Assembly: GCF_000341145.1 (NCBI RefSeq)
Contig: NZ_ANBE01000003.1
Span: forward strand, 381,321-426,902
Reading direction: 5' to 3'
Source: Nocardiopsis xinjiangensis YIM 90004
GTDB taxonomy: Bacteria > Actinomycetota > Actinomycetes > Streptosporangiales > Streptosporangiaceae
DNA length: 45,582 nt
Shown piece by piece: positions 10,721-38,645 of this stretch. The notes beneath the pieces are model-generated. The model did not search any database and was not told where the DNA came from. It saw nothing but the letters and a program-made list of their open reading frames with translations. The position numbers were made by a program, and so were the translations under genes. Every line of letters starts with the position of its first letter. Positions within the stretch are counted from its first letter, which is position 1.

Positions 10721-10897
10721 ATGGACGCTCAGCCCTCCGCAAACGGCCGCAGCATCGGCCCCTCGGGGATCTGCCCACGGGGCGAACACGACTGGCAGCC
10801 CGCGTCACCCGGTTCAGCACGCCGACTGTGCAGCAAGTGCAACTCGATGATGATGCGCAACTACGTCCCGGAGGCCGATCGGGACCGCCGCAGCTGA
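10721..10897 (+). CDS. small zinc-ribbon-like hypothetical protein
   Basis: 58 residues starting at an ATG. The motif ICPRGEHDW...RLCSKCNSMMMRNY has Cys18, His22, Cys37 and Cys40, a possible zinc-binding set (C-x4-H-x14-C-x2-C). The tail is hydrophilic. It ends 20 bp before the protease gene and is on the same strand, so it may be the first gene of that operon. No family was recognised. The reading is supported by the motif and spacing, but not by any known homologue. Confidence 0.5.
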   Translation: MDAQPSANGRSIGPSGICPRGEHDWQPASPGSARRLCSKCNSMMMRNYVPEADRDRRS

Positions 10898-10917
10898 GGT
10901 GTGAGAGAGGCCCTCAC

Positions 10918-12801
10918 GTGACCGAGACCCCCCGCCTCGCGCCCCTGCGAGAACCCGCTTGGCAACTGCGTGTCCTCGACGGCGACGGATTCCCCGTCGG
11001 CGGCGCCGTCCACATGTCCCCCCGTTTCCTCGTGACCTGTGCCCACGTGGTCAACACCGCGCTGGGCCTGCCCGCCGGCACCGAGGAGCACCCCGGCGAG
11101 CGGGCGCGCGTACGGCTCGCCCAGAGCCACGGCCCCGTGTGGGAGGCCTCCGTCGGAACCGAGGTGTGGTCCGCGGGCCACGGCGAGATCGACGTGGCCG
11201 TGCTGTGGTTGACCTCCTCCGGCTTCCCCGACACCGGCCATCCCGTGCGGGTGACCGGTTCCCGGTTACGCCAGGGCGAACCCCTCCGTACGACCGGTTA
11301 CCCGGACGGTTTCGCGCTGCATTCCTCCCTGCTCTACCTCGGACCGGCCGGCCCCTCCCGTGCCAGCCACCAGGCCACGCTGCCCGAGAACGAGGTCCAG
11401 CCGATCACAGAGGGTTTCAGCGGATGCGGGGCCATCACCGAGTCCGGTGAGCTGGTGGGCCTCGTCCAGCAGAACCACTTCCACGCCCACGACGGCGACC
11501 GCCCCAGCGGCACAGCGTTCATACTGACCACCGACGACATGCCCGACGGCGGCTACGGCGGCCGGGAGGGCCGCGCCGTCGGGGCCGGACCGGTCTCGCG
11601 CCTGACCGACGAGGCCCTGTGCGGTGAGGTCGCCTACGAGCGCCTGCACGACTTCCTGGAGTCCGTCCCGGAGGCCGTGCTGCCCCACGCGCACCTGCTC
11701 GACGACGAGGAACGCCGCCGCACCCGCGAGCGCATCGGGGAGGAACCCAGTGCGTGGCGGGTCCTCATGGGCCTGTGGAACCTCGTACCGGCCGGGGACG
11801 CACCCCCTCTCCGGCTCGTGTGGGTGCACCACGCGCTGCGTGAGCTGCGCAGCCACAGGCCCGTCCCGCCCTCGGCCGGCCGATGGCTGCGCGAGGAGGC
11901 TCGCGAGCACCTCGGTGACGGATGGGAGCAGGAACTGGACTCCGAACTCACCCGCCGTTCGTCGGAACACGCCCCGTCCCCCGAGGGCCCCTCGGCCGAG
12001 GAAGGCACCGCCCCGCAGCCCGGCCGACGCCCCGACACCGTCGTCCTGTTCGACGTGGAGCCGGTGACCGGGGGCTACAAGCTCTCCCACGGCATCGCCC
12101 ACCGTTCGGGGCGGGGCTACGAACACCGGGAGCAGGCGACGATGCTGGTCCAGCGCTACCAACTCCGCGACCGGGTGGGCGACCTCGTGAGCCAGGCGGG
12201 TTTCCGGGACGGCCTCACCCCGGAGCGCGGATCACCACGGCTGAGCTTCCTGCTGCCCAAACGCCTGCTCGGCCTGGACCTGGGATCGGTCACCGGCCAC
12301 CACGGCGACCGACAGGACGCCCCGACCCTCGCCGAGGAGTACGAACTCGTCTACCACGTGCGCGAGCGGGTGCGCCCGCCCCGGCACGTACCCGGTCGTG
12401 AACGGCCCTGGCGCACGCGCACCGAACGCCAGCACGAGCACCCCCTGTTGAGCGCCGACACCTTGCTGACCACGTGGGACCGGGTCGGGGACGAGGTGCG
12501 TGCAGCGCTCTCCGACGAGGAGGTGACGGTCTGTGTGGTGGAGACCGACCGGTTGGACACCCACAACGTGTACGACGCCGTGCTCGAGTCGGGGGTACCG
12601 ACGGTCCTGCGCGGCCCGCGTCCTGCCTTGCTCACGCTGATCGGGGAGCTGCTGACGGCCCGGTCGGAGGAGCAACGGCACGTGTGGGCCCTGCCCTCGC
12701 TGTTGCGTGAGCGGGCCGAGCGCAAACAGGGCGGGGAAGGGATCGTGCTCGTGCACGACGAATACGGTGACGTACTTTTCCGGGAGGTGGAGAGAACCTG
12801 A
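10918..12801 (+). CDS. trypsin-like serine protease with VMAP-C-like C-terminal domain
   Basis: 627 residues from a GTG at 10918 after GAGAGAGG. Residues 10-205 are a trypsin-fold peptidase: His43 in VTCAHVV, Asp92 in EIDVAVLW and Ser168 in GFSGCGAI (GxSG rather than GDSGG). Residues about 230-350 are helical and acidic (LTDEALCGEVAYERLHDFLE, LVWVHHALRELRSHRPVPP). Residues about 360-627 resemble the VMAP C-terminal domain: SPRLSFLLPKRLLGLDL, then AEEYELVYHVRERV, PWRTRTERQ and VYDAVLESGVPTVLRGPRP. Such proteins occur in NTP-dependent conflict systems where a sensor unleashes a protease effector. No signal peptide is visible, so it is cytosolic. It is followed after 183 bp by the NB-ARC/TPR gene. 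The domain names are by eye. Confidence 0.8.
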   Translation: MTETPRLAPLREPAWQLRVLDGDGFPVGGAVHMSPRFLVTCAHVVNTALGLPAGTEEHPGERARVRLAQSHGPVWEASVGTEVWSAGHGEIDVAVLWLTSSGFPDTGHPVRVTGSRLRQGEPLRTTGYPDGFALHSSLLYLGPAGPSRASHQATLPENEVQPITEGFSGCGAITESGELVGLVQQNHFHAHDGDRPSGTAFILTTDDMPDGGYGGREGRAVGAGPVSRLTDEALCGEVAYERLHDFLESVPEAVLPHAHLLDDEERRRTRERIGEEPSAWRVLMGLWNLVPAGDAPPLRLVWVHHALRELRSHRPVPPSAGRWLREEAREHLGDGWEQELDSELTRRSSEHAPSPEGPSAEEGTAPQPGRRPDTVVLFDVEPVTGGYKLSHGIAHRSGRGYEHREQATMLVQRYQLRDRVGDLVSQAGFRDGLTPERGSPRLSFLLPKRLLGLDLGSVTGHHGDRQDAPTLAEEYELVYHVRERVRPPRHVPGRERPWRTRTERQHEHPLLSADTLLTTWDRVGDEVRAALSDEEVTVCVVETDRLDTHNVYDAVLESGVPTVLRGPRPALLTLIGELLTARSEEQRHVWALPSLLRERAERKQGGEGIVLVHDEYGDVLFREVERT

Positions 12802-12984
12802 GACACACCCCGCCTGGAAGAACGTCGGCGACCGGTGGTATCCGGAAAACGCGCACGCGGAGAACTATTCGCCGGAGCGCGCCGGGGTGGCAGAATCGAC
12901 GTCAGACTCGTGCGTCGGTATTTCCGAGGACGGGGGACCACCTTCAGGAGCCCTTGAGAAGGGAATAATGGGGGTAAAAAGGAC

Positions 12985-15900
12985 ATGACACCCCAGAATA
13001 CGCAAATTCCTGCCCTCACCCTCAGCAGCCTCACCAGCGACCCCTCACATCTGGTGATCCTGCTCGACACATCCCCCCTGATGTGCGTACACGAGGACGA
13101 GATCGCGGAACTGCTGCGTGAGGCCGAGTCCGTCGGCGCCGCGGTGTGCGCCATCACGCCCACACCCCTGGCCCGTGCCCACAGCGGCGAGCACCGGTGG
13201 CCCCTCGACGCGCCCCTGCCCGCCGGCGCCACCGCAGGCATCGTCGTCACCGACGCCCAGGACCGCGGCTGGCGCCAGCCCCACTTCCGCTCCTGGCTCG
13301 CCGAGCTCAACACCCGTCTGCCCCTGCACGTGGTGCACCTGCTCGACCGCTCCACCTGGCACCGCGGACCGGTCCACCCTTCACCCATGCGCCTCACCGG
13401 CGCCCGGACCAACGACCCCGCCGCTTGGTCTCCCGCCCACCCCGACGACGTCGGCGACCTCCCCGGCGGGACCACCGCGCTGCCGGTCCTGTCGCCGGAG
13501 AACCCGCCCGAGCACCGCAACCTGCCCGCGCCCGAGGCCGGTTGGGAAGCCGACGTGTGGGCCCTGCCCCTGGACGGCAGCCGCAACGACGACGCCACCC
13601 TCGTGCCCGATCCCGTCGCGCACTTCCTCACCCACGCCTCGCTCGGGGCCCGCCTGCTCGCCCAACGCCTCGCCCAGGCCCCCGTCAACCTGCCCGTGGC
13701 CCGCATGCTGCACCAGGGCATCCCCCGCGACCCCGGCGAGGAACGCACCCGGCGGACCGAGATCGCCGAGGTCCTCGGCAGCGGCCTCCTGGACCCCACC
13801 CACCCGGTCGGCGACCTCCACGATCCCGTCGAGGCCGCCCTGGAGTTCCTGCCCGGGGTCCGCCCACAGCTCCTCGGCCGGCTCGGCGACCTCAGCACCA
13901 TGCGGTCGGTCTTCTTCGCCCTCGGCGTGGAGTTCAAGGAGACCGCGCAGGTCTACCAGTGGCTGTCACGCCTGGAGATCGGAGCGCCCCCCGAGATCAC
14001 CGTCCCGCCCCGGGAGAGGGGCCTGGCTCGGGCCGTTCTGCCCGCCCTGCGCCAGATGCCCGGCGAGTACCGCCGCTTCGCCGCCCGCCTGGAGAACTCT
14101 CTCGGGATCCGCAGACCGGCACCGGCCCCCGCAACGCCTTCCCCCGGTGCGGCCACGGGCTCCGAAGCACCCACAGGACCGCCCGGGGCCACACCGCCGC
14201 CCGCAGGGCCAACGAAACTCCGGAAGGAGCAGACCCCCCAAGTGAGCATCCACGACGACCTCGACGAGGAGTCCACCGGCTCGGAGCCCGTCAGCACGCG
14301 CACCGGAGGCTTCCGCCGCCGGCGCCGCAGCTCCGCCCAGTTGCGCGGCCTGCCCCCGCACAACCGGCACTTCACCGGCCGGGACGACTTCCTGGAGCAC
14401 ATCCGCGCCTCGTTCGACTCCCCCGAGACCTATGACGGGCTCTACCTACTCACCGGCGGCGGCGGTTACGGCAAGACCCAGATCGCGATCCAGTACGCGC
14501 ACCAGCACCGCGACGACTACGACCTCATCTGGTGGTTCCCCGCCAACAACGCCACCGACGTCCAGCAGGCCTACCTGCACCTGGCCCGTTTCCTCGGCAT
14601 CCCCGGGGACCTCGGCAACTACGAGCGCACGGTCGAGCGTGTGCACGAGGACCTGCAGTTCCGCGAGGACGTCGGGTACTGGCTGCTGGTCTTCGACGAC
14701 GTCGAGGACCTCGACAAACTGCGCCAACAAGGGCTGCCCACGGGCCGCGGCGGCGACATCCTCATCACCTCCCGCGAACAGAGCTGGTACCAGGACGGCG
14801 TCAGCGACGGCAAGAAGGTACGCGAGCTGCCCCCGCAGGAGAGCGTCACCCTGCTGCGCCGCGTCTGTCCCCAAGGGCTGGACGAGGACACCGTCGCCCT
14901 GCGTATCGCCGAGCAACTCGAACACTTCCCCCTCGCCCTCGCCCAGATGGGCGCCTACCTGCGCGATTCCCTCATCAGCCCCGAGGAGTTCCTCGACCAG
15001 CTCACCAACGAGTTCTCCTCGCTGCTGGACGAGGTCGGCCCCGACGGCCACTACAACAAACCCCTGGCCGCGGCCTGGAACGTGCAGCTGGAGGAGCTCA
15101 AGCGCGGCTCCGAACGCGACCGCGAACTCAAGCAGCTCGTGCGCGAGTTCATCCAACTGTGCTCGTTCTTCGCGCCGCGCCCGCTCAAACGCACCCTCTT
15201 CCACCGGGCACGCGGGCTCAGCGACAACCGGGAGCTCGCCAAGATCCTGGGCGACGACCGGGCCCTGAACAAGGTCCTGCAGTACATGAGCCGGCACAGC
15301 CTCGCCGACCTCGACCGCCGCAACTACACCTTCCAGCTCCACGGCAGCTTCCAGGCGGTCGTGCGCCGCACCCTCGGTGAGGACGAACGTGTGCGCCTGC
15401 GCGACCTCGCCCACCGCCTGCTCGCCCAGAGCGACCCGCTGGGGCCCGAGAACCCGCAGAACTGGCCCGAGTACCAGATCTACTACGCCCACATCCTCTC
15501 CTCGCAGGCCTGGCGCACCCGCGACGTGCAAGTACGCAACCTGGTACGCAACGTCGTGGTGTACCTGCTGGAGACCGACAACCCGCTCATGGCCCAGCGG
15601 ATGGCCGAGCCGGCGATCGAGGCCTGGTACGACGACCCCTCACAGCGCTTCGAGATGGAACTGCTGCGCAACAACGCCCTGCGTCTGCGCGACCAGAACA
15701 CCCTGGCCCTGAAGGAGGCCGACCGGATCCTCGCCGAACGCCGGGAGTTGGACGGCGGCGACAGCGAGGAGGTCATGGAGGCACGCCGCGCGCGGGCCAT
15801 CGCGCTGAGCCACCTGGGCGAGTTCGAGAGCGCGCTGTCGGAGTTCCGCTCCATCCGCGAGAATGTGGTCGAGCTCTACACCGAGGAGGACGACAACGCC

Positions 15901-16833
15901 CTGGTGGCCGCGCACGACGTCGCCGTGGCCCTGCGGTTGCTCTTCCGGTTCACCGAGGCACTGGAGATCGACGAGGAGAACCTCCGGCGCCGCCGCCACC
16001 TGTTCGGTTCCAACGGCATCCCGACCCTGCGCTCACAGACGGCCTTGGGCATCAGCATGCTCGGCCTGGGGCGTATGACCGAGGCGACCGCGACCTTGGG
16101 GGACTGCCTGCAGCGGTTCGAGTCGGAGGAGGCCGAGGACAGTTCGCACGCGGCGGACATCCCCCTCTTCCAATCGGTTCTGCACCGGCGCTTCGGCGAC
16201 CACGACCGGGCCCTGGAACTGTCCCAGGGCGCGGCCGACGCCCAGTACCTGCGCGACCAGTTGCGCAACCGCACCGAGGTGTTCGTCTACAACATCCACG
16301 CGGTGAACCTGGCCTTCACCAAGAACGTGGAGCGCGCCGAGCTCCTCGCCGAGCGGCTCCTGGTCACGGCCGACGTCCACTACGGGGAGAAACACATCGC
16401 CCGGTGGATCACGCGTGTCAACGCCGCGATCGTGCTGCGTGCGGCGGGTCGTTTCGAGGAGGCGCTGGAGCTGGACCGGGTCGCCCACGAACGCCTGGCC
16501 GACCTTCTGCCGCCGGAGCTGGGCCCGCTGGCGCCGGTGGAGATCAACCGGGGCAACGACCTGTTCGGGCTGGGCCGCCTCCAGGAGGCCCTGGAGCAGG
16601 ACAACACGGCCCTGGCCACGTGCATGGCCGGCCTTGCTCCCGACCACCTGTTCACCCTCATCGCCCGGCGCAACCTGCTCATCAGCCGCCGGGCCCTCGG
16701 CGAGGAGGTCGGGGAGGAGTGGTTGCAGCTGCGGAACGAGTTCGTGGCCGGATACGGCCCCGACCACCGTTACGTACAGGGCATGGACGGTTTCGTCCGG
16801 CTCGACGCGGACTTCCTACCGGTCTCCCGGTGA
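12985..16833 (+). CDS. NB-ARC ATPase with TPR array and vWA-like N-terminus (FxSxx-COOH system TPR-like)
   Basis: 1282 residues. Residues about 20-370 resemble the SAV_2336 N-terminal region: a vWA-like start (LVILLDTSPLMC, where the DxSxS metal motif is degraded to DTSPL), then a helical block (THASLGARLLAQRLAQAPVN, ARMLHQGIPRDPGEERT, EAALEFLPGVRPQLL). Residues 370-450 are a Pro/Ala linker. Residues about 455-800 are NB-ARC: LPPHNRHFTGRDDFLEHI, Walker A GGGGYGKT (Lys497), Walker B LLVFDD (567-572), ILITSREQ and a GLP-like LEHFPLALAQMGAYL. The rest is a TPR/ALIX-like repeat array (LALKEADRILAERRELDGG, LGLGRMTEATATLGDCL). Many such proteins are named FxSxx-COOH system TPR protein, but no FxsA/FxsB is here. 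The ATG follows AAGG weakly, so the start is uncertain. Confidence 0.8.
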   Translation: MTPQNTQIPALTLSSLTSDPSHLVILLDTSPLMCVHEDEIAELLREAESVGAAVCAITPTPLARAHSGEHRWPLDAPLPAGATAGIVVTDAQDRGWRQPHFRSWLAELNTRLPLHVVHLLDRSTWHRGPVHPSPMRLTGARTNDPAAWSPAHPDDVGDLPGGTTALPVLSPENPPEHRNLPAPEAGWEADVWALPLDGSRNDDATLVPDPVAHFLTHASLGARLLAQRLAQAPVNLPVARMLHQGIPRDPGEERTRRTEIAEVLGSGLLDPTHPVGDLHDPVEAALEFLPGVRPQLLGRLGDLSTMRSVFFALGVEFKETAQVYQWLSRLEIGAPPEITVPPRERGLARAVLPALRQMPGEYRRFAARLENSLGIRRPAPAPATPSPGAATGSEAPTGPPGATPPPAGPTKLRKEQTPQVSIHDDLDEESTGSEPVSTRTGGFRRRRRSSAQLRGLPPHNRHFTGRDDFLEHIRASFDSPETYDGLYLLTGGGGYGKTQIAIQYAHQHRDDYDLIWWFPANNATDVQQAYLHLARFLGIPGDLGNYERTVERVHEDLQFREDVGYWLLVFDDVEDLDKLRQQGLPTGRGGDILITSREQSWYQDGVSDGKKVRELPPQESVTLLRRVCPQGLDEDTVALRIAEQLEHFPLALAQMGAYLRDSLISPEEFLDQLTNEFSSLLDEVGPDGHYNKPLAAAWNVQLEELKRGSERDRELKQLVREFIQLCSFFAPRPLKRTLFHRARGLSDNRELAKILGDDRALNKVLQYMSRHSLADLDRRNYTFQLHGSFQAVVRRTLGEDERVRLRDLAHRLLAQSDPLGPENPQNWPEYQIYYAHILSSQAWRTRDVQVRNLVRNVVVYLLETDNPLMAQRMAEPAIEAWYDDPSQRFEMELLRNNALRLRDQNTLALKEADRILAERRELDGGDSEEVMEARRARAIALSHLGEFESALSEFRSIRENVVELYTEEDDNALVAAHDVAVALRLLFRFTEALEIDEENLRRRRHLFGSNGIPTLRSQTALGISMLGLGRMTEATATLGDCLQRFESEEAEDSSHAADIPLFQSVLHRRFGDHDRALELSQGAADAQYLRDQLRNRTEVFVYNIHAVNLAFTKNVERAELLAERLLVTADVHYGEKHIARWITRVNAAIVLRAAGRFEEALELDRVAHERLADLLPPELGPLAPVEINRGNDLFGLGRLQEALEQDNTALATCMAGLAPDHLFTLIARRNLLISRRALGEEVGEEWLQLRNEFVAGYGPDHRYVQGMDGFVRLDADFLPVSR

Positions 16834-17052
16834 CACGCTGCACGGAACCGCCGCCAGCAGGCGGGCCCACTCGCTGAGCGGGACACCGAGCTCCGTGCCG
16901 GAGGGGTTCTGGGAATCGCGGACGTGGGCACCGCCGCGGCTGAGGCGGGCTTCCCAGCATCCGCCCGAGTCGTGCGAGCGGCGGGACTTGCGCCAGATGT
17001 CAGCGCTCCGACCGTCGGCCCAGTTCAACGTCTCGCCCTTCCGCGTTCCCAT
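16816..17052 (-). CDS. DUF397 domain protein
   Basis: About 78 residues. WRKSRRSHDSGGCWEARL followed by HVRDSQNPSGTELGVPLSEW is the DUF397 signature, a small actinobacterial family usually paired with an XRE-type regulator. Here no such regulator is adjacent; it sits between the NB-ARC/TPR gene and the Trypco1 gene on the opposite strand. Its end overlaps the NB-ARC gene end by 18 bp. The start could be the ATG at 17052 or a GTG at 17067 behind GAGGAG. The role is unknown; in other settings the pair is linked to development or signalling. Confidence 0.7.
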   Translation of the reverse strand: MGTRKGETLNWADGRSADIWRKSRRSHDSGGCWEARLSRGGAHVRDSQNPSGTELGVPLSEWARLLAAVPCSVSPGDR

Positions 17053-17171
17053 GTCAAGTTGACCCACGATCTCCTCTGAGCGACGACCGACGCTTGACGG
17101 CACATTCCCATTTTACGTTCCAACCGGACAATCACGAAAGTCCACATGAAATACCGACCAGAGGTGCCACG

Positions 17172-17501
17172 GTGAACAACGCGATCGACTTCGTCACCGA
17201 TGACGGATTCACCGTCAAGATCGAGCCCGCACAACAGCGCCGGCAAGGGGCGCACAACGTCAGCAAACAGAACGGGACAGCCACCGGACAAAAACACCTC
17301 GACGACGTCCTCCTGCGTATCCGTAAGGTCGCCGAAGCCGTTTCCTCGCAGATCAACGGGTTCTCCGAGATCCCCGGAGGCCCCTCCGGCGCGGAGGTGG
17401 AGTTCGGGATCAGCGTGAGCGCCGAGGCCGACGCGGTCATCCTCAAGGGCAACGGCGAGGCCACCTTCAAGGTCACCCTCACCTGGGCCCGCCACACCTG
17501 A
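17172..17501 (+). CDS. Trypco1 (trypsin-co-occurring) domain protein
   Basis: 109 residues from a GTG behind GAGGTG. The C-terminal half (VLLRIRKVAEAVSSQINGF, then GGPSGAEVEFGISVSAEADA and ATFKVTLTW) matches the trypsin-co-occurring domain 1 pattern, a small beta-rich domain found next to trypsin-like effectors in conflict systems. It fits the trypsin gene 4.4 kb upstream. Its proposed role is as an accessory or regulatory partner of the protease. A hairpin follows and the next gene converges. The match is by eye, and function is inferred from company. Confidence 0.75.
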   Translation: MNNAIDFVTDDGFTVKIEPAQQRRQGAHNVSKQNGTATGQKHLDDVLLRIRKVAEAVSSQINGFSEIPGGPSGAEVEFGISVSAEADAVILKGNGEATFKVTLTWARHT

Positions 17502-22418: not shown

Positions 22419-24278
22419 TCAGGGCCTGGCACGCTCCAGTGCCTGCCAGAACCCCTGACGCAGTCCTTCCCGGACCTCGTCGCGCAACAGGTGGTCGACA
22501 GGCAGTGCGGACCCCTGGAGCAGACGCGCCTCCAGGTCGGAGGGCATCCGGGGCCTGCGGGCGAGGACGGCCTCGACCCACAGGGCGGGCGCCTCGCGCG
22601 CGATCGACTCCGCGAAGCCGCTTCCTTCCCCGTGCGCGACGTGCACCGCTTCCTCAACGGTATGCGCGGCGGCCGCCCCGTGTTGCGGATATCCGGGAGC
22701 GGACCCGGATTCCTGGTAACCGGGCCGACCGAAACCGGCGTCGTGGTCGGGACCAGCAGGTGACCGCACCCCGCTCGCGGGGGTGGGCCCGCCGCCGTGG
22801 GCGGCCTCAGTTGCCGTACTGGTCCCATAGGTAGGGTTTGTGTCGCCCGCACCCCCGTAACCAGGGTTCTCGCCGGTTCCGAACCGCGGATCCTGCGGCG
22901 GAGGGGGCGCGTCTCTGGGCGGTGGCGCGTGGCCCGCCTGTGACTCGCCGGCGAAGGAGGGCTGCGGACCGGTCCCGGGCGCGAACGAGGGTTGTGGCCC
23001 CGTGCCCTGTTGATAGGCCTGTTGCGGCCCGGTCATCGGGTGACCCTGGGGCGGCCGGCCGGGCACACCGTAGATGTTGGGGTCGGTTCCCTGCATCGAC
23101 GGCTGACCGCCGGTGGAGGCGTACCCGGGTTGGGCACCGGCCGGAGCCGGACCCGGCGGCGCGGGGTGGCCCCGCTGGACCTGGTGCTGTGGGTACGCGT
23201 TCTGCCGTTGGTGCTGCTGGGGCGCTTGCTGATGCTGGGGCGCTTGGTGCTGCTGGGGCGCTTGCTGATGCTGAGGCGCTTGGGGGTGCTGAGGCGCTTG
23301 GGGGTGCTGGGGCGCTTGGTGCTGTTGCTGCGTTTGCGGCGGCTGGGGCTGTTGCGGGTGGCCCGCGCCGGGGTACGAAGCGCCGGGGTAGGCACCGGTC
23401 CCACTGGCCGGGGCCTGCTGGCCGGAGGGGAAACCGTTGGCGTCGATCCCGCCCGAGGGCTGCCCCTCGGCCGGACCCGCGAGATGGTCGCCGCCGCGCT
23501 GCTCGGCTATGGAGCGGCGCATGGCACGCAGCTGGTCCATCGCGCTGCCCTGGTGTGACGGGCTCCCGCCGGTGCCGGCGAACATGGCCTCGAGCCCGCC
23601 GGTGGAGGGGGCCGCCACTTCGACCTGCTCACCGCCGGTCCGGGCGGCGACCGGGTGCCGCGGGGCGTCGGGGGCCGAGCGGGCCTGGCCGTTGGCGAAG
23701 GGCGCGGTGGTCTTGGCCGCCTCCTCCTGGGCTGCGGCCCCGCCGCTCAGGAGGTTGACGTGCGGCCGGAGGTGTCCCGCGCCGATCTCGATGAGGTCGT
23801 CGCACTCCCGGCGCAGGGCCCGGGAGATGGTCCAATTCCCCTCCACGGAGATGTGCACGACGGTGACGCGCACTCCCAGGTCCTGTACGTCGGCGACCAC
23901 GGAGGACATGTCCTCGTCCCCGCTGACCAGTACGGCGTCACACAGGACACCGGTGCGGGCCAGTGTGGTCAGGTCACGCTGGACGTAACTCTCCACGCCC
24001 TCACGACGCCCGGGTCTGATCCTGACACCCCGGAACTTGATGCCGGGGATGTCCGCGATGCCGTCCTGTTCCTGGGAGCGCCGCTCATCGGCGACCGCCT
24101 CGTACCAGTAGCAACGCAGCAGCGGCAGACCAGTGCGGTCGCGGGCCACCTCGTTGAGGAACTGGACGAGTCCGGCATAGTCCCAGGAGACGGAGTCCCG
24201 ATTCCGGGTTCCGTGCACGGCCATCGCGCCGTCCGCGAGAAGGTATCCCGCGTCGACGAACAACGCGCAGCGGTCCAC
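22419..24278 (-). CDS. NYN-domain (PIN-like) protein with Gln/Pro-rich repeat region
   Basis: 619 residues from a GTG behind GGAAGGGGG. The first 165 residues are a NYN domain: MDRCALFVDAGYLL, the DR...GLPLLRCYWYEA strand, VQRDLTTLARTGVLCDAVLVSGDEDM and GVRVTVVHI, with the conserved acidic residues of the PIN/NYN nuclease fold (Asp9, Asp in SGDEDM). It probably binds or cleaves RNA. Residues about 300-400 are Gln/Pro/His-rich imperfect repeats (QAPQHPQAPQ, QQAPQQHQAP) and the rest is Gly/Pro-rich low complexity. The last 90 residues regain order (VEEAVHVAHGEGSGFAESIA, ALWVEAVLARRPRM). The low-complexity block suggests disorder or condensate behaviour; inference only. Confidence 0.78.
   Translation of the reverse strand: MDRCALFVDAGYLLADGAMAVHGTRNRDSVSWDYAGLVQFLNEVARDRTGLPLLRCYWYEAVADERRSQEQDGIADIPGIKFRGVRIRPGRREGVESYVQRDLTTLARTGVLCDAVLVSGDEDMSSVVADVQDLGVRVTVVHISVEGNWTISRALRRECDDLIEIGAGHLRPHVNLLSGGAAAQEEAAKTTAPFANGQARSAPDAPRHPVAARTGGEQVEVAAPSTGGLEAMFAGTGGSPSHQGSAMDQLRAMRRSIAEQRGGDHLAGPAEGQPSGGIDANGFPSGQQAPASGTGAYPGASYPGAGHPQQPQPPQTQQQHQAPQHPQAPQHPQAPQHQQAPQQHQAPQHQQAPQQHQRQNAYPQHQVQRGHPAPPGPAPAGAQPGYASTGGQPSMQGTDPNIYGVPGRPPQGHPMTGPQQAYQQGTGPQPSFAPGTGPQPSFAGESQAGHAPPPRDAPPPPQDPRFGTGENPGYGGAGDTNPTYGTSTATEAAHGGGPTPASGVRSPAGPDHDAGFGRPGYQESGSAPGYPQHGAAAAHTVEEAVHVAHGEGSGFAESIAREAPALWVEAVLARRPRMPSDLEARLLQGSALPVDHLLRDEVREGLRQGFWQALERARP
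23205..23345 (-). repeat. imperfect tandem repeat encoding QAPQ-type motifs
   Basis: Units near GGGGCGCTTGGTGCTGCT recur several times with 15-24 bp spacing (GGGGCGCTTG, GAGGCGCTTG). They encode the Gln/Pro/His region of the NYN protein. Confidence 0.75.
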
Positions 24279-32456: not shown

Positions 32457-33434
32457 TCACTGGGGGACGTCGTTGACCGCGACACGCTCGACGTAGCCGT
32501 TGGCCACGAGCCAGCGGAGCGTGGGTGCGGGCGGCACGTCCGGGAACCCGGCGGTGTCCAGTGTGAAGCGCGCTCCCCCACCGGGGTTGCCGCCCTCGTC
32601 CGGGGCGATGGCGGCGGTCACCTGGAAGGGGTGCACGACCCGGTAACGGTGGTAGAGCTCGTCACCGTCGGCTCCGGTGCGCACGTGGTCGGGCAGGCCC
32701 CGTTCGGCGTAGGGGGTGCCGTCGGGATGGAGGTGGCGTCCGGCCTCGGGGCCGAAGGCGTCGACGTGGTCACCGGGTTCGAGCTCGTGCAGGTAGGAAT
32801 CGCCGCTGCGCTGCTCGAGTCCTTCCTGGACCGCTTCGACGAGCTCCTCGGTCTCCTCCCGGGCCTCTTCCTCCTCGGTCGGGGAGAGCACGGCCGGCTC
32901 GGACTCGGTGGTGGCGAGCTCCTGGTAGAGCCAGCGGGCGGCTTCGTCCTCGGTGCCGAACTCCTCGTTGGTGCGGCCCTGGTCGAAGTCCATGACGGAA
33001 GCCTCGAGGTTGCCCTCTGCGCCCGGGGTGAGGAAGTAGTAGCTGGAGACGGTGCTGGGCTCGGGCCGCGGGTCGCCGGGCAGGACGTAGAGGTGTTCCT
33101 CGACCCCGGCCGCTTCGAGTTCGTCTCGGAGCATGTCCAGGGTGACCTGCTCGCCGACCCAGTCGCCGGGCACGGGTGGGACCGCGTTCTCCGCAGGGGC
33201 GGATCCGGCCTGCTCGCGTTCGAGTTCCTGGTCGCTGAGGGTGGTGGTGATGAAGGACCAGCCGACGCTGCCCGCGCACGCGGCGGCAGCGAGGCAGGCG
33301 CTGACGACGACCTTGCCGATGTTCTCGTCGAGGCGGCGCCGGGTGCGTCCGCTGCCGAAGAGCACCGCCTCACGCAGACGCTGGCGCCGGACCGCGACGG
33401 ACTCCAACAACTGGTTGTCGTAGTCGCGGCCCAC
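32457..33434 (-). CDS. membrane-anchored TNT-domain (NAD+ glycohydrolase-like) protein
   Basis: 325 residues. Residues 1-37 are basic and cytosolic (RRQRLREAVLFGSGRTRRR), 40-66 form one membrane helix, and a low-complexity acidic part with a coiled helix (about 185-210, EEEEAREETEELVEAVQEG) leads to residues 217-322, which resemble the TNT domain of the tuberculosis necrotizing toxin: GDHVDAFGPEAGRHLHPDGT, PYAERGLPDH, ELYHRYRVVHPFQV, GNPGGGARFTLD, WLVANGYVERV. TNT cleaves NAD+. Where TNT relatives commonly have Gln after GGG (GGGxQY) this has Arg289, so activity is uncertain. It takes the operon place of EccB, whose sequence it does not resemble. The domain would lie outside the membrane. Confidence 0.78.
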   Translation of the reverse strand: MGRDYDNQLLESVAVRRQRLREAVLFGSGRTRRRLDENIGKVVVSACLAAAACAGSVGWSFITTTLSDQELEREQAGSAPAENAVPPVPGDWVGEQVTLDMLRDELEAAGVEEHLYVLPGDPRPEPSTVSSYYFLTPGAEGNLEASVMDFDQGRTNEEFGTEDEAARWLYQELATTESEPAVLSPTEEEEAREETEELVEAVQEGLEQRSGDSYLHELEPGDHVDAFGPEAGRHLHPDGTPYAERGLPDHVRTGADGDELYHRYRVVHPFQVTAAIAPDEGGNPGGGARFTLDTAGFPDVPPAPTLRWLVANGYVERVAVNDVPQ

Positions 33435-33488
33435 CGGCGCTCCTCGTCTTGGTCTCGGTCGGTGTGTGGTCGTCCTCGGTGAAGCCCG

Positions 33489-33791
33489 TCAGATGCTGCT
33501 GACAGCGTTACCGGCCCGGCTGAGGGTGTCCTGGGCCGTGGAGTCGTTCTTCTCCATGGTCTCGCGCAGCAGGCGGATGATCGAGCGGACCTCGTTGCCG
33601 CACGTGCCCCACTTCTGCTCGACCTCGCGGTAGGACTCGTCGACCCCGTCGGCCTCGAAGTCGGACATGGCGCTGTTGACGTCCACGTCACGTTCGCCGA
33701 GGAGCTCCTCCAGCCGGGAGGCGATCCGTTCGATGTTGCTCTGCACCTCGGCGGAGGCGGAGTCGTCGTAGGCCTTCTGTCCCGAGCTCAT
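33489..33791 (-). CDS. WXG100-family ESAT-6-like protein
   Basis: 100 residues, the family length. Two helices flank the turn KWGTCGNEV (WxG), with basic and acidic alternation and no signal peptide. WXG100 proteins pair as helical hairpins and are substrates of type VII secretion, escorted by EccC. It is 70 bp upstream (in sequence) of the second Esx gene's end and likely co-transcribed with the neighbouring genes on the minus strand. A YxxxD/E-like C-terminal signal is not clear. Confidence 0.82.
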   Translation of the reverse strand: MSSGQKAYDDSASAEVQSNIERIASRLEELLGERDVDVNSAMSDFEADGVDESYREVEQKWGTCGNEVRSIIRLLRETMEKNDSTAQDTLSRAGNAVSSI

Positions 33792-33861
33792 CGTCTCTCC
33801 TCAGTTCGCAGGGGTACGGGGTGCTGTTCGGGGCCGCGGGAAGGAACGCACGCGGCCGGGG

Positions 33862-34191
33862 TCACTTGAACTTCGCGGCGTCGAAGTTGGCCTTGCCCAT
33901 GTCGCTGTTGGCGTCGTCGGCCATGGTCTCGTCACCGGTCCGGAAGGCCGTGTCCATCTCCTGCTGGCCCTGGTTGATGCGGCCCAGGCCCTGTTTGAGA
34001 TCGGCCGTGATGGTCTCGGAGTTGTTCTTGAACGCGGCGAAGGCGGCCTTGCCCTCACCGTCGAACTTGCCCTCGAGGGGTTCGGCCGCGGCGATGAGGT
34101 CCTTGAGAAGGCTCTCCAGCTCCTCGCCGGATGAGCTGGTGTTCTTCTGGAGGACCGGCATGGTCTCTTCGTTGAAGCTCCACCGAGACAT
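33862..34191 (-). CDS. WXG100-like ESAT-6 family protein
   Basis: 109 residues. LLKDLIAAAEPLEGKFDGEG KAAFAAF is the typical central turn of the LXG/WXG100 fold, where FDGEG replaces W-x-G. The protein is helical and acidic, starting with MSRWSFNEETMPVLQ. It is the first gene of the minus-strand T7SS operon and the likely heterodimer partner of the 33489 protein. AGGTGA stands before its ATG. Confidence 0.8.
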   Translation of the reverse strand: MSRWSFNEETMPVLQKNTSSSGEELESLLKDLIAAAEPLEGKFDGEGKAAFAAFKNNSETITADLKQGLGRINQGQQEMDTAFRTGDETMADDANSDMGKANFDAAKFK

Positions 34192-34646
34192 GGTTCACCT
34201 GCTCAGTTAGGGGGCTGCAAAAGCGGTCTCCGGTGACGGCGCGCGGAAGCGGCTCGCGAACCGCTGCACCTGATCACCGACCACAAATCATGTCAGGCGC
34301 CTCCGACAGTCGTGCGGGTGCCTCGGCCTCACCCTCCGCGCACGTGAGCCTCTCGGGAACCCGGGTTCACCTGTGCCGATAGGGCCGGGCACGGGCCCTC
34401 ACCGGCAGTTTCTCGGTTCGCGGCCCACGGAGGGGCCACTCGAAAATTTAATCAAAATGACACAAAGCGCCAAGAACAGTGAAGAACTCGGCGCCCACCT
34501 TCACGAACCGCACACGGCCCGAGGCCGTCCCACCCCTGTGGGGCCGATACATCCCCGTCCCTCCCACGACGACCCCCGAGCCCCGTTTCGGTAGGCTTCC
34601 TGCGCGCCTGCCCGGCCCGCCTCCCCCGACCCCGAGAGGAACGCCG
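34192..34646. other. divergent promoter region of the T7SS locus
   Basis: About 455 bp separates the esx operon from eccC. Most is G+C-rich, with one A+T-rich patch at 34441-34465 (CGAAAATTTAATC and on). Frames here look like shadows. It presumably carries both promoters; no clear paired hexamers or operator were found. Confidence 0.4.
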
Positions 34647-37600
34647 ATGACGCTGAGGGTCGTGCACCGGCCGACACGTATCGTCTACCCGGCCCCAGCA
34701 CAGCAGCCGCGCGAGGTGGAGGCACCACCGACCCTTCCCGACGGCAAGTCACAGCCCAACCCGCTGATGAGCATGCTGCCCATGGTCGGGATGATGGCGT
34801 CCCTGTCGATCATGATGGTCATGCGCAATCCGGCCTTCATGGCCGTCGGTGCCGTCCTGATGTGTGTGGCCCTCCTCGGCGCCGTCGTCATGCTCTTCTC
34901 CCGGCGGGGGCAGGTCACCCGGCAGCGCCGCAACCAACGCGACCTGTACCTGGAGTACCTGGAGGAGCTGCGCGAGGAGCTCAGCGGATGGGAGAACGGC
35001 ACCCGCTCCCACGCCCGCCTCCTCGATCCCCCTCCCGAATCGCTGTACGACATCATCCGCGACCCCACCCGTCTCTGGGAACGCCGCCGACGCGACCGCG
35101 ACTTCCTCGACGTGCGGGTCGGCGCCGGCATGACCTCCGGACGCCCACTGCAACTCGCCGAACAGGGCACCGCGCTCACCCCCACCGACCCCTTCATGCA
35201 GTCCGAGGCCCGCGCCCTCATCGACCGCTTCGGAGCCATCCCCGACATGCCGCTCCGGCTGCCCCTGGACATGGTCGGCAACATCAGCGTCGTCGGCGAC
35301 CACGAGGACCTCATGCGCTTCGTGCGCGCCCTCGCCGCCCAGTTCGGCGCCTTCCACGCCCCCGAGGACGCCGGTCTGGCCGTCGCCCACCCGGAGGAGC
35401 GCGCCGAGGCCTGGTCCTGGCTGCCGTGGCTGCCCCAGGCGCTCGACCCGCAGCGCCGGGACAACGGCGTCGCCACCCGCCTCATCGCCCCGGACCCGCG
35501 CGAGCTGGGCTCCCTGCTCGCCGACGAACTGCGTGCACGCACCGACTTCGCCTCCGAGGTCCGCCGCGGCATGGGCCGCCGCGAGGCCTACCGGATGCTG
35601 CGGCGCCTCGTCGTCGTGCACGACACCCACGGCGAGGTCGCCACCGAACTCGTGCGCCCCGACCACGCCATCGACCCCGCCGACCTCGGCCTGACCGTCC
35701 TGCACCTGGTCGCCCGCCAGGTCGACGAGCCCGGCGACGTCAACATCCGGGTGACCGTCGACGGCGACGAGGTCGCCATCGAGGACCTGCGTGGGACCGA
35801 TCCCGTGGTCTCCACCGGCACCCTGGACCACGTCACCCCCGCGACCCTCACCGGCCTCGCACGCATGCTCGCGCCGCTGCGCCTGTCCCCCGAATCCGTG
35901 GAGGAATCGGCCCAGGAGGGCGGCAGCATCGACTTCCCGTCCATGCTCGGCGTGCACGATCCGGGCGACATGGACGTTCCGCGCATGTGGGCGCCCCGGA
36001 GCGAACGGGCGTTCCTGCGTGTGCCCATCGGCGTGGACGACATGGGCAACCCCGTGGTGCTGGACCTGAAGGAGTCGGCACAGCTCGGTATGGGCCCGCA
36101 CGGCCTGTGTGTGGGCGCCACGGGCTCCGGCAAGAGCGAAATGTTGCGCACACTCGTCCTCGCCCTAGCCGGTTCCCACCCGCCCGACCGGGTGAGCATG
36201 GTGCTCGTGGACTACAAGGGCGGTGCGACCTTCGCCCCCTTCGAGGACATGCCGCACGTGGCCGGCGTCATCACGAACCTGGAGGACGACGCCGCCCTCA
36301 TCGAGCGCGTCCACGCCAGCCTCTCCGGTGAGGTCCAGCGCCGCCAGCAGGTGCTCCGGGACGCCGGCAACGTGTCCAACATCGGCGACTACCAGTACAA
36401 GCGCGAACAGGACCCGAGCCTGCCCCCGCTGCCGCATCTGCTGGTGATCATCGACGAGTTCGGCGAGCTGCTCACCGCACGTCCCGACTTCATCCAGTTG
36501 TTCCTGTCGATCGGACGGATCGGACGCAGCATCGGGGTGCACCTGCTGCTCTCCAGCCAGCGCATCGAGGGCGGCAAGCTCCGCGGGCTCGACACCTACC
36601 TGTCCTACCGGCTGGGTCTGCGCACCTTCTCCGAGGAGGAGAGCCGCACGGTCCTCAACACCCCCGACGCCTTCCACCTGCCCGCCCTGCCGGGTTTCGG
36701 CTACCTCAAGGTCGACACCACGGTGTACCAGCAGTTCAAGGCGGGCTACGTCTCCGGCCCCTACCGCGGTCCCGTGGCCGAGGAGGAGAGCGGGGACCAG
36801 AGGCCCGGGGTGCGCCGCTACACCGCGTTCAACCCGGACCCCGAGGACGAACAGCACGAGGAGAAGACGGCGGAGAGCGGCCCCTCCATGCCCTCGCGCA
36901 CCACCGGTCCCACCCTGCTCGACGTCATGGTCGGCCAGTTCAACCAGCACGGGGACCGTACCCGCGCCATCTGGCTGCCGCCCCTGCCCCCCGCCCTCAC
37001 CCTGGACCAGGCCACCGGGGCACCCGAGAACAGCGAGTACGGGCTGCTTCTGCCGGGGGAACGTGCAGCCATGCGGCTGCCCATCGGCACCCTCGACGAC
37101 CCCTCGCGCCAGTGGCAGGACGTGTGGGAGCTCGACCTGACCGCCTCCGGTGGGCACGTGGCGGTCATCGGCGGCCCCCAGAGCGGCAAGACGACCCTGC
37201 TGCGGACCCTCGTGACCTCGCTCGCGCTCACGCACACCGCGGAACAGGCCGTCGTCTACGGCCTGGACCTGGTCGGCGGCGGGCTCCAGGCACTCAAGAA
37301 CCTGCCGCACGTGGGCGGCGTGGCGCTACGCACCGACTCCGAGCGTGTACGCCGCACCGCCGAGGAGATGCGCGGGATGCTCGAGCACCGCCAGGAGGTC
37401 TTCCGGGACCGGGGCATCGACTCCGTGGCCCAGCTGCGACGCATGCACGCACGCGGCGAGGTTCCCGAGCTCGCCAGCGCCGACGTCGTCCTGTGCATCG
37501 ACGGCTACGGCGCGCTGCGCCAGGACTTCTCCGAGATCGAAGGCATCGTCACCGATCTCCTCCAACGGGGCGGCGGTTACGGCATCCACGTCGTGGCGGG

Positions 37601-38645
37601 CATGCTGCGCTGGAACGACGTACGCATCGCCACCCAGTCCAACTTCGGGCAGAAGGTCGAGCTGCACCTCAACGACCCGACGGAGTCGACGATCGACCGC
37701 AAGCTCGCCGAGACCCTGCCCGAAGGTGTGGGCGGCCGGGCCCTGACCTCCGGAAAGCTGTTCGCCCAGACGGCGCTGCCCCGCTTCGACGGCGAGGCCT
37801 CCGACGAGGAACTCGGCACGGTCGTGGAATCGACGGTGCGCGCGATCGACCACGCCTGGGCGGGCAAGCGCGCACCCGAGGTACGGGTGTTGCCGACGTC
37901 GTTGTCGGTACGTTCACTGCCCACGTGGGAGAACGAGTCCAAGACCGTGCCGGTGGGTGTGGACGAACGTTCCCTGTCCCCGGTCGCGCTCGACCTGTTC
38001 GAGCGGGACCAGAACATGCTCCTGTTCGGCGACGGCGAGAGCGGCAAGACCAACTTCCTGCGCCTGCTCGCCGAAGGCCTCGTGGACCGGTACACACCCG
38101 AGGACGTCGTGTTCGCGGTCATGGACCCGCGGCGTTCGCTGCGCAACCTCGTACCCAACGAGTACGTGGGCGGGTACGCGAGCAGCCCGCGTGTGTGCGG
38201 GAGCCTGGCCACCGGTGTCGCCAAGGAGCTGGAGGAGCGCCTGCCCGACGAGGGCGACCCCGACTCGATGGACGTGCCGTCCTTCTCGGGCCCGCGCATC
38301 GTCGTCGTCGCCGACGACTACGACGTGCTCACGACCGCCGGGCAGAAACCGCTCGCCCCGTTCGTGCCCTTCGTCTCCAGCGGACGCGACATCGGCCTGC
38401 ACTTCGTGGTGGCACGCCGCGTCGCGGGTGCGAGCCGCGGCCAGTTCGAACCCCTGGTCCAGGCCATGCGGGAGATCGGCACGAGCGCGCTGGTGATGTC
38501 CGGTGACCGCACCGAGGGCCAGGTCCTGCCGCGGGTGCACGCCTCGCCGCAGCCGGCTGGGCGCGGTCTGTGGGTCTCGCGCACCGGATCGACACAGCTG
38601 GTGCAGACCGCCCTGATCGACACCCAGGAGCACCGCCGTCCCTGA
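34647..38645 (+). CDS. eccC: type VII secretion FtsK/SpoIIIE-type ATPase EccC
   Basis: 1332 residues from the ATG behind GAGAGGA. Two N-terminal membrane helices (LMSMLPMVGMMASLSIMMVM, FMAVGAVLMCVALLGAVVML) are followed by a cytosolic arm and three FtsK-type ATPase domains. Walker A motifs are GATGSGKS (Lys496), GGPQSGKT (Lys848) and GDGESGKT (Lys1134). The first domain also has VLVDYKGGATF and LPHLLVIIDEFGELL. This is the motor that recognises WXG100 signals and energises export. It is transcribed divergently from its substrates and EccD. The single, fused form is the actinobacterial EccC type. Confidence 0.95.
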   Translation: MTLRVVHRPTRIVYPAPAQQPREVEAPPTLPDGKSQPNPLMSMLPMVGMMASLSIMMVMRNPAFMAVGAVLMCVALLGAVVMLFSRRGQVTRQRRNQRDLYLEYLEELREELSGWENGTRSHARLLDPPPESLYDIIRDPTRLWERRRRDRDFLDVRVGAGMTSGRPLQLAEQGTALTPTDPFMQSEARALIDRFGAIPDMPLRLPLDMVGNISVVGDHEDLMRFVRALAAQFGAFHAPEDAGLAVAHPEERAEAWSWLPWLPQALDPQRRDNGVATRLIAPDPRELGSLLADELRARTDFASEVRRGMGRREAYRMLRRLVVVHDTHGEVATELVRPDHAIDPADLGLTVLHLVARQVDEPGDVNIRVTVDGDEVAIEDLRGTDPVVSTGTLDHVTPATLTGLARMLAPLRLSPESVEESAQEGGSIDFPSMLGVHDPGDMDVPRMWAPRSERAFLRVPIGVDDMGNPVVLDLKESAQLGMGPHGLCVGATGSGKSEMLRTLVLALAGSHPPDRVSMVLVDYKGGATFAPFEDMPHVAGVITNLEDDAALIERVHASLSGEVQRRQQVLRDAGNVSNIGDYQYKREQDPSLPPLPHLLVIIDEFGELLTARPDFIQLFLSIGRIGRSIGVHLLLSSQRIEGGKLRGLDTYLSYRLGLRTFSEEESRTVLNTPDAFHLPALPGFGYLKVDTTVYQQFKAGYVSGPYRGPVAEEESGDQRPGVRRYTAFNPDPEDEQHEEKTAESGPSMPSRTTGPTLLDVMVGQFNQHGDRTRAIWLPPLPPALTLDQATGAPENSEYGLLLPGERAAMRLPIGTLDDPSRQWQDVWELDLTASGGHVAVIGGPQSGKTTLLRTLVTSLALTHTAEQAVVYGLDLVGGGLQALKNLPHVGGVALRTDSERVRRTAEEMRGMLEHRQEVFRDRGIDSVAQLRRMHARGEVPELASADVVLCIDGYGALRQDFSEIEGIVTDLLQRGGGYGIHVVAGMLRWNDVRIATQSNFGQKVELHLNDPTESTIDRKLAETLPEGVGGRALTSGKLFAQTALPRFDGEASDEELGTVVESTVRAIDHAWAGKRAPEVRVLPTSLSVRSLPTWENESKTVPVGVDERSLSPVALDLFERDQNMLLFGDGESGKTNFLRLLAEGLVDRYTPEDVVFAVMDPRRSLRNLVPNEYVGGYASSPRVCGSLATGVAKELEERLPDEGDPDSMDVPSFSGPRIVVVADDYDVLTTAGQKPLAPFVPFVSSGRDIGLHFVVARRVAGASRGQFEPLVQAMREIGTSALVMSGDRTEGQVLPRVHASPQPAGRGLWVSRTGSTQLVQTALIDTQEHRRP

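Follow-up and report, generated by a model that had tools for sequence, protein, structure and literature searches.

The stretch analysed here, a window of 45,582 nucleotides on contig C3 (NZ_ANBE01000003.1, positions 381,321 to 426,902) of the 5.33-Mb genome of Nocardiopsis xinjiangensis YIM 90004, carries a small island of genes resembling a predicted bacterial conflict system. Three of them lie on the plus strand and encode a 627-residue VMAP-type protease, a 1282-residue protein with vWA-like, NB-ARC and TPR parts, and a 109-residue Trypco1 protein. A preliminary description made from the sequence alone had proposed this three-gene island with a DUF397 gene between the last two members, and our analysis bears out that layout, the DUF397 gene being on the opposite strand. 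The features are as follows, in window coordinates:

10918..12801, plus strand: VMAP-type protease, 627 residues (profile matches, predicted fold, 15-sequence alignment)
About 10951-11529, plus strand: trypsin/DegS-fold part of the protease (predicted fold)
11044-11046, plus strand: His43 codon, predicted triad (invariant in 15/15)
11191-11193, plus strand: Asp92 codon, predicted triad (invariant in 15/15)
11419..11421, plus strand: Ser168 codon, predicted catalytic serine (invariant in 15/15)
About 11590-11967, plus strand: helical middle region of the protease (predicted model)
12079-12759, plus strand: VMAP-C domain of the protease (49.8 bits)
12802..12984, no strand: 183-bp gap at the place of the MoxR gene in related loci (MoxR unmatched here and at the 14 homologous loci)
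12985..16833, plus strand: vWA-like/NB-ARC/TPR protein, 1282 residues (profiles; model of residues 1-378)
13045-14001, plus strand: its vWA-like part (profile from MoxR-linked vWA components)
13066..13083, plus strand: altered MIDAS (metal ion-dependent adhesion site) motif DTSPLM, residues 28-33 (alignment with MoxR-linked proteins)
14359-15444, plus strand: NB-ARC domain (Pfam, over cut-off)
14473..14475, plus strand: Walker A Lys497 codon (GKT kept in 14/14 aligned cassette proteins)
From about 15904, plus strand: TPRs (Pfam, over cut-off)
16816..17052, minus strand: DUF397 gene between the NB-ARC/TPR and Trypco1 genes (PF04149, 49.3 bits, cut-off 24)
17172..17501, plus strand: Trypco1 gene, 109 residues (PF19493, 76.2 bits, cut-off 24.6)
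10721..10897, plus strand: small cysteine-pair open reading frame, 58 residues, at the nrdB-symporter site (outside the cassette by comparison of sites)

By sequence, the island has the part set and gene order that Kaur et al. (2020; PMC7159879) described for VMAP ternary conflict systems, minus one core part, MoxR, in keeping with the kinship to the conflict systems of these authors that had been suggested at the outset. VMAP systems are predicted conflict systems widespread among multicellular bacteria, with 716 organisms counted in table 1 of that paper; in these systems MoxR is proposed to remodel the complex via the vWA domain, leading to deployment of the effectors (PMC7159879). The N-terminal peptidase and Trypco neighbour are present as in trypsin-type VMAP systems, and a PF20028 domain ends the protease as it ends the third component of the ternary systems. 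Comparison across genomes shows a conserved cassette that unites the VMAP protease with the vWA-like/NB-ARC/TPR protein and Trypco1. Its predicted protease and NB-ARC motifs are kept, but the MoxR gene, second in related loci, and the N-terminal extension of the vWA component are absent. As it lacks MoxR, one of the defining parts, we file the cassette not as a strict VMAP ternary system but as a MoxR-free derivative.

Using profiles built from the VMAP loci of relatives, we found MoxR beside none of 15 cassettes, but at all 17 of the relatives' loci and at 48 of the 50 that a survey of 246 genomes of the class yielded; the preliminary description was thus right to regard such a MoxR-free combination as uncommon. 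Survey loci were those over the VMAP-C cut-off and not among the relatives' loci already fetched, adjacent pieces of one VMAP-C match being counted as one locus. Of the two survey loci without MoxR, L237 is a contig end of 3.9 kb, and L239 has a weak VMAP-C match and lacks vWA too. The relatives' usual order is trypsin/VMAP, MoxR and vWA, the last often with NB-ARC and TPR, and DUF397 and Trypco1 are frequent. One MoxR protein from a relatives' locus was scanned and passes the AAA_5 cut-off, and the W-G and PxWR motifs of Kaur et al. are seen in those MoxR alignment rows that cover the N-terminus. Because the survey may miss VMAPs as diverged as that of the cassette, MoxR loss is not shown to be confined to this genus.

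The N-terminal part of the protease is, in the predicted model, a DegS/HtrA-fold serine protease, and the Pfam match of the window protein to Trypsin_2 lies slightly below its cut-off. His43, Asp92 and Ser168 are invariant in all 15 aligned proteases, and from the trypsin match and the predicted fold we infer that they constitute the catalytic triad. A full-length Pfam scan of the protease misses VMAP-C. However, the C-terminal fragment scores 49.8 bits against PF20028 (cut-off 27) and the genome search gives 49.4 bits; the reading, taken from full-length scans, that the protein has no VMAP-C was therefore dropped. The cassette protease exceeds the VMAP-C cut-off in 8 of 11 cassette genomes searched, and with Trypco1 at 76.2 bits both family calls of the preliminary description now have profile matches behind them. 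Ten of the 15 homologues match VMAP-M0 at E up to 1; the window's own protease does not, either at full length or as a middle fragment, although the model is helical in this region.

The partner protein scores 96 bits in its vWA-like part against a profile of vWA components from MoxR-linked loci. The Pfam vWA family is unmatched both in the window protein and in the four MoxR-linked components scanned, and the vWA label accordingly draws on gene position, a MIDAS-like motif and the description by Kaur et al. Both MIDAS aspartates are kept (Asp28 and the Asp of VTDAQDRGW), as are Walker A (GKT) and Walker B (DD) in 14 of 14 aligned cassette proteins, a set that excludes the split protein of L044. 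A match to SAV_2336_NTERM is sub-threshold (101.7 bits, cut-off 200) and begins at profile position 149. Pfam gives no match to an adaptor domain, CARD-like or other, at E up to 1 for the two large proteins of the window's cassette.

Among 37 genomes of the genus, 15, that of the window included, hold a full-length relative of the protease, as against none of the 23 other genomes of that search. Thirteen named records with full-length relatives comprise 12 from Nocardiopsis and one from Streptomonospora. In a class-wide sample of 296 genomes, full-length matches were again found only in the genus (G000 and G005), the remaining matches being partial and mainly to the protease domain. The three genes travel together, as had been anticipated: the NB-ARC/TPR gene and Trypco1 lie downstream of the protease, in the same order, at 14 of 14 homologous loci outside the window, and all three persist down to 38% identity. 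Of the two refuting conditions named in the preliminary description, want of a VMAP-C or Trypco1 profile match and homologues that do not occur together, neither is borne out. A DUF397 match by tblastn stands in the equivalent antisense place at 12 of these 14 loci. One more cassette was found in Nocardiopsis sp. JB363 (L068). In Nocardiopsis sp. CNR-923 (L044 5580-8830, and L067), the vWA part is a separate open reading frame and there is a frame change in the TPR region.

The cassettes make up a single clade within a single genus, Nocardiopsis where the record carries a name, and most of them share a site that stands empty in some relatives. The labels nrdB, nrdA, nadE and symporter are our reading of the sequences, without a family call, and genes beyond the main open reading frames were called by a composition-based script that placed some starts wrongly. 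The stretches fetched include the symporter gene at 13 and nrdB at 12 of the 14 homologous loci. nrdB was found in 27 genomes of the genus, and the cassette lies within 1.5 kb of it in nine. In six others the symporter is at the site and a cassette match is absent (four were viewed over 11 kb), in three the site holds an NB-ARC/TPR gene that stands alone, accompanied by a DUF397 match, and nine have a flank with neither cassette nor symporter, among them G009 and G024, which carry the cassette further off. The standalone genes (L040 11494-13998; L271, L272 and L273) occupy the nrdB-symporter site of other genomes with DUF397 adjoining, their match to the window protein starts past the vWA-like part, and G009 has both forms. 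The cysteine-pair open reading frame at 10721-10897 was considered as a further cassette gene and rejected, as it occurs at the site with and without the cassette: matches of 77-93% identity lie at 4 of 14 homologous cassette loci and also at two cassette-free sites beside nrdB (L273 and L274). Its product is zinc-ribbon-like, and Pfam matches are absent at E up to 1.

Several changes in the remaining proteins accompany the absence of MoxR. Counted from the farthest start codon, 12 of the 15 cassettes have 19-20 residues ahead of the vWA-like domain, and the other three have 25, 33 and 54; the open frame upstream spans 25-79 codons. In MoxR-linked loci the corresponding frame has a median of 354 codons in the 17 relatives' loci (lowest 51, L151) and of 239 in 47 survey loci (lowest 110). 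An LA[D/E]ALWLA-type motif upstream of vWA is found at 15 of the 17 loci from relatives and at 37 of the 47 from the survey, and in none of the 15 cassettes. The second serine of the MIDAS DxSxS is leucine in all 15 cassettes; it is serine or threonine in all 15 MoxR-linked proteins that cover the position, one of the 16 aligned leaving it uncovered. In VMAP-C the cassette loses 8 of 23 columns conserved in at least 70% of 54 MoxR-linked sequences (from 67 fetched loci, the others being partial or not entered), and six of the eight are Trp or charged. A control with 13 MoxR-linked groups, drawn by hand from the vWA tree, gave VMAP-C losses of 0 to 7 and Trp/charged losses of 0 to 3. As the highest of these totals come close to that of the cassette and the Trp/charged losses alone stand out, we grade the VMAP-C changes as suggestive only, and their use as a stand-alone sign of MoxR loss is weakened.

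With MoxR and its probable contacts gone and the protease and NB-ARC intact, we infer that NB-ARC/TPR switching may gate the protease directly. Our favoured reading, to which we give a probability of roughly 60%, is that the cassette derives from a VMAP ternary conflict system, is free of MoxR, and relies on NB-ARC/TPR switching alone to gate its protease.

Alternatively, MoxR might still be needed and be borrowed in trans from a second, complete VMAP system of the same genome. Such a system exists in the window genome, about 120 kb away, with a protease, a VMAP-C protein, MoxR, a vWA component and Trypco1. In this second system (L136 6106-11704) the protease and the VMAP-C protein are two genes, and the vWA component, of 548 residues, is without NB-ARC. 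Ten of the 15 cassette genomes encode a VMAP-type MoxR outside the cassette, in one case as a contig-edge fragment. However, a search that scored 33 of 82-94 first-look candidates did not find it in the other five: four (G002, G017, G019 and G027) gave no match, and the matches of G008 are generic and reach 48 bits at most. The vWA extension and MIDAS serine, plausible contact points, are likewise lost. Moreover, Kaur et al. (PMC7159879) find congruent trees of the three components, which favours cognate partners. Borrowing thus appears unlikely to us, and direct gating by NB-ARC/TPR preferable.

A system that has shed a core part might also be a decaying one, whose remainder persists functionless. 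The split vWA part and TPR frame change in Nocardiopsis sp. CNR-923 (L044/L067) and the long stem of the clade fit decay. Against it, the predicted triad, Walker A and Walker B are kept, and all three genes are retained in 15 of 37 genomes of the genus, down to 38% identity. The ratios of nonsynonymous to synonymous substitution (dN/dS), measured against one close relative only (the genome behind L032), also speak against decay of the three genes: 0.24 for the VMAP gene, 0.23 for the vWA/NB-ARC/TPR gene and 0.18 for Trypco1. The same comparison gives 0.45 for DUF397 and, for the neighbours, 0.07 for nrdB and 0.12 for nadE. By part, the protease (0.09) and NB-ARC (0.08) are slow, and the VMAP middle (0.54) and the vWA-NB-ARC linker (0.71) faster; the pace of the VMAP middle agrees with the suggestion of Kaur et al. 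that VMAP-M acts as a sensor (PMC7159879). We therefore regard decay as very improbable. As to history, quick maximum-likelihood trees place the cassette in one clade for both vWA (approximate likelihood-ratio support, SH-aLRT, 100) and NB-ARC (95), with long stems. A vWA tree rooted on four Microcystis vWAs from MoxR-holding loci, with four long tips left out, sets the cassette inside the MoxR-linked actinobacterial vWAs. That MoxR was lost once is the simplest account, though the rooting of this tree is not proven.

A number of points weigh against the MoxR-free, NB-ARC-gated reading. The fold comparison of the modelled residues 1-378 decides neither way on vWA. The LA[D/E]ALWLA pattern was picked after inspection; a stricter one is found in only 2 of 17 and 7 of 47 loci, and 12 of 64 MoxR-linked vWA loci lack the motif even by the looser pattern. 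Two of the 13 control groups lose 6 and 7 VMAP-C columns, close to the 8 of the cassette. The clade stem is long (1.4 changes per column), and support for the nesting is 93 in a quick tree. Genome-wide absence of MoxR rests on the scoring of 33 of 82-94 first-look candidates in each of the five genomes, and the MoxR proteins encoded elsewhere in ten cassette genomes, the contig-edge fragment included, could act in trans.

If the reading holds, the NB-ARC/TPR protein would be an NLR-like switch that changes state upon sensing an intruder-derived signal. The TPRs would take the ligand and a nucleotide-dependent, probably ATP-dependent, assembly would follow. The vWA-like domain and the VMAP-C tail may form the docking interface through which this assembly concentrates or activates the DegS-like protease. 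Trypco1 could be a dedicated cofactor, inhibitor or pro-effector substrate of the protease, and the outcome would be self-damage or dormancy. In the preliminary description, too, NB-ARC/TPR would sense a trigger, the VMAP-like tail would dock and the protease would be released, perhaps as abortive defence. The former work of the MoxR ring may have been taken over by NB-ARC alone or be needless now, so that, in a cassette without the usual ATPase motor, the NLR-like switch may now work alone.

A role in immunity is plausible. Instead, the cassette could be a regulated developmental or housekeeping proteolysis module, in the manner of NLR-protease modules recruited for host lysis: in Caulobacter, LypABC, a trypsin and NLR-TPR system resembling phage defence, drives cell lysis in gene transfer agent release (PMC13236601). 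The patchy distribution, the empty sites and the standalone NB-ARC/TPR genes at that position in other genomes are of a kind frequent in conflict loci and speak against this, though they are no proof; we consider a non-immune role rather unlikely and keep to a conflict system gated by NB-ARC/TPR.

The fuller evolutionary proposal, about which we are evenly divided, is that a functional NLR-protease system arose from a three-part ancestor by dispensing with MoxR, leaving the NB-ARC/TPR switch alone to gate the VMAP protease. If so, the vWA extension, the MIDAS serine and the VMAP-C Trp/charged positions, lost in a coordinated way, would map where MoxR normally touches its partners in many MoxR-linked VMAP systems. 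A natural version that has shed MoxR poses directly what MoxR is for, and a three-gene cassette is a smaller system to reconstitute, with suggested interface positions open to testing.

Elsewhere in the window, a type VII-like secretion locus spans 30121-38645. It holds an EccD/YukD protein (31061-32368), a TNT-domain gene (32457-33434), an FtsK/SpoIIIE-type ATPase (34647-38645) and two small open reading frames of WXG100-like size, one of which was scanned with no Pfam match. The TNT domain is a family of NAD-cleaving toxins. A 619-residue protein (22419-24278) has an N-terminal NYN (RNase-like) domain and a long remainder without a Pfam match, and a 978-residue protein (24470-27406) joins sigma-70 region 2 to a zf-HC2 zinc finger within a single chain.

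Among known systems, the VMAP ternary systems (Kaur, Burroughs, Iyer and Aravind, eLife 2020; PMC7159879) are the closest. Shared with them are an N-terminal trypsin joined to VMAP-C, a Trypco1 neighbour, a vWA component fused to an AP-ATPase (NB-ARC) and TPRs, a VMAP gene upstream of the vWA gene, and a nearby DUF397 gene, reported for about 4% of the ternary systems. In contrast to them, the cassette has no MoxR gene and no vWA extension with its acidic/aromatic motif, and its MIDAS and VMAP-C positions are changed. A VMAP system without MoxR is not described in the open-licence PMC literature examined, supplementary tables, subscription papers and preprints lying outside that search, and no experimental test of VMAP systems is reported in the literature examined. 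Incomplete ternary-like loci beside diversity-generating retroelements (PMC10907252) also have partial sets of parts, some with Trypco1/Trypco2 and trypsin-like peptidases, but the most fully described of the incomplete ones retain MoxR and are missing the vWA or the VMAP part; the locus named DGR 2 has Trypco2 without a complete VMAP system, its MoxR status being unstated there.

The NB-ARC/TPR protein also passes the cut-off of the FxSxx_TPR equivalog NF040586 of NCBIfam (522 bits, cut-off 300), which belongs to the FxSxx-COOH peptide systems (NF040586, TIGR04269). The cassette differs from these in its vWA-like N-terminus and VMAP protease partner, and the radical SAM enzyme FxsB, over its cut-off in 10 of 37 genomes searched, has no match in the window genome, for which reason filing under the FxSxx systems was rejected. 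The preliminary description, which had noted neither FxsA nor FxsB, is thus upheld for FxsB, yet one protein of the cassette scores as a family of these very systems.

Two further likenesses are of working rather than of kinship. In the nuclease-protease pairs of Hachiman and AVAST (PMC12799240), a trypsin-like protease activates a partner encoded next to it, whereas the cassette has no recognised nuclease. CARD-NLR systems and LypABC (PMC13236601) pair a trypsin-like peptidase with a STAND ATPase-TPR protein, and in LypABC both activities were shown to be necessary; the cassette, in which Pfam finds no CARD or adaptor, would differ in coupling the two via VMAP-C and the vWA-like domain. The cassette would thereby bring VMAP systems nearer to NLR-protease immunity, such as apoptosome-like protease activation.

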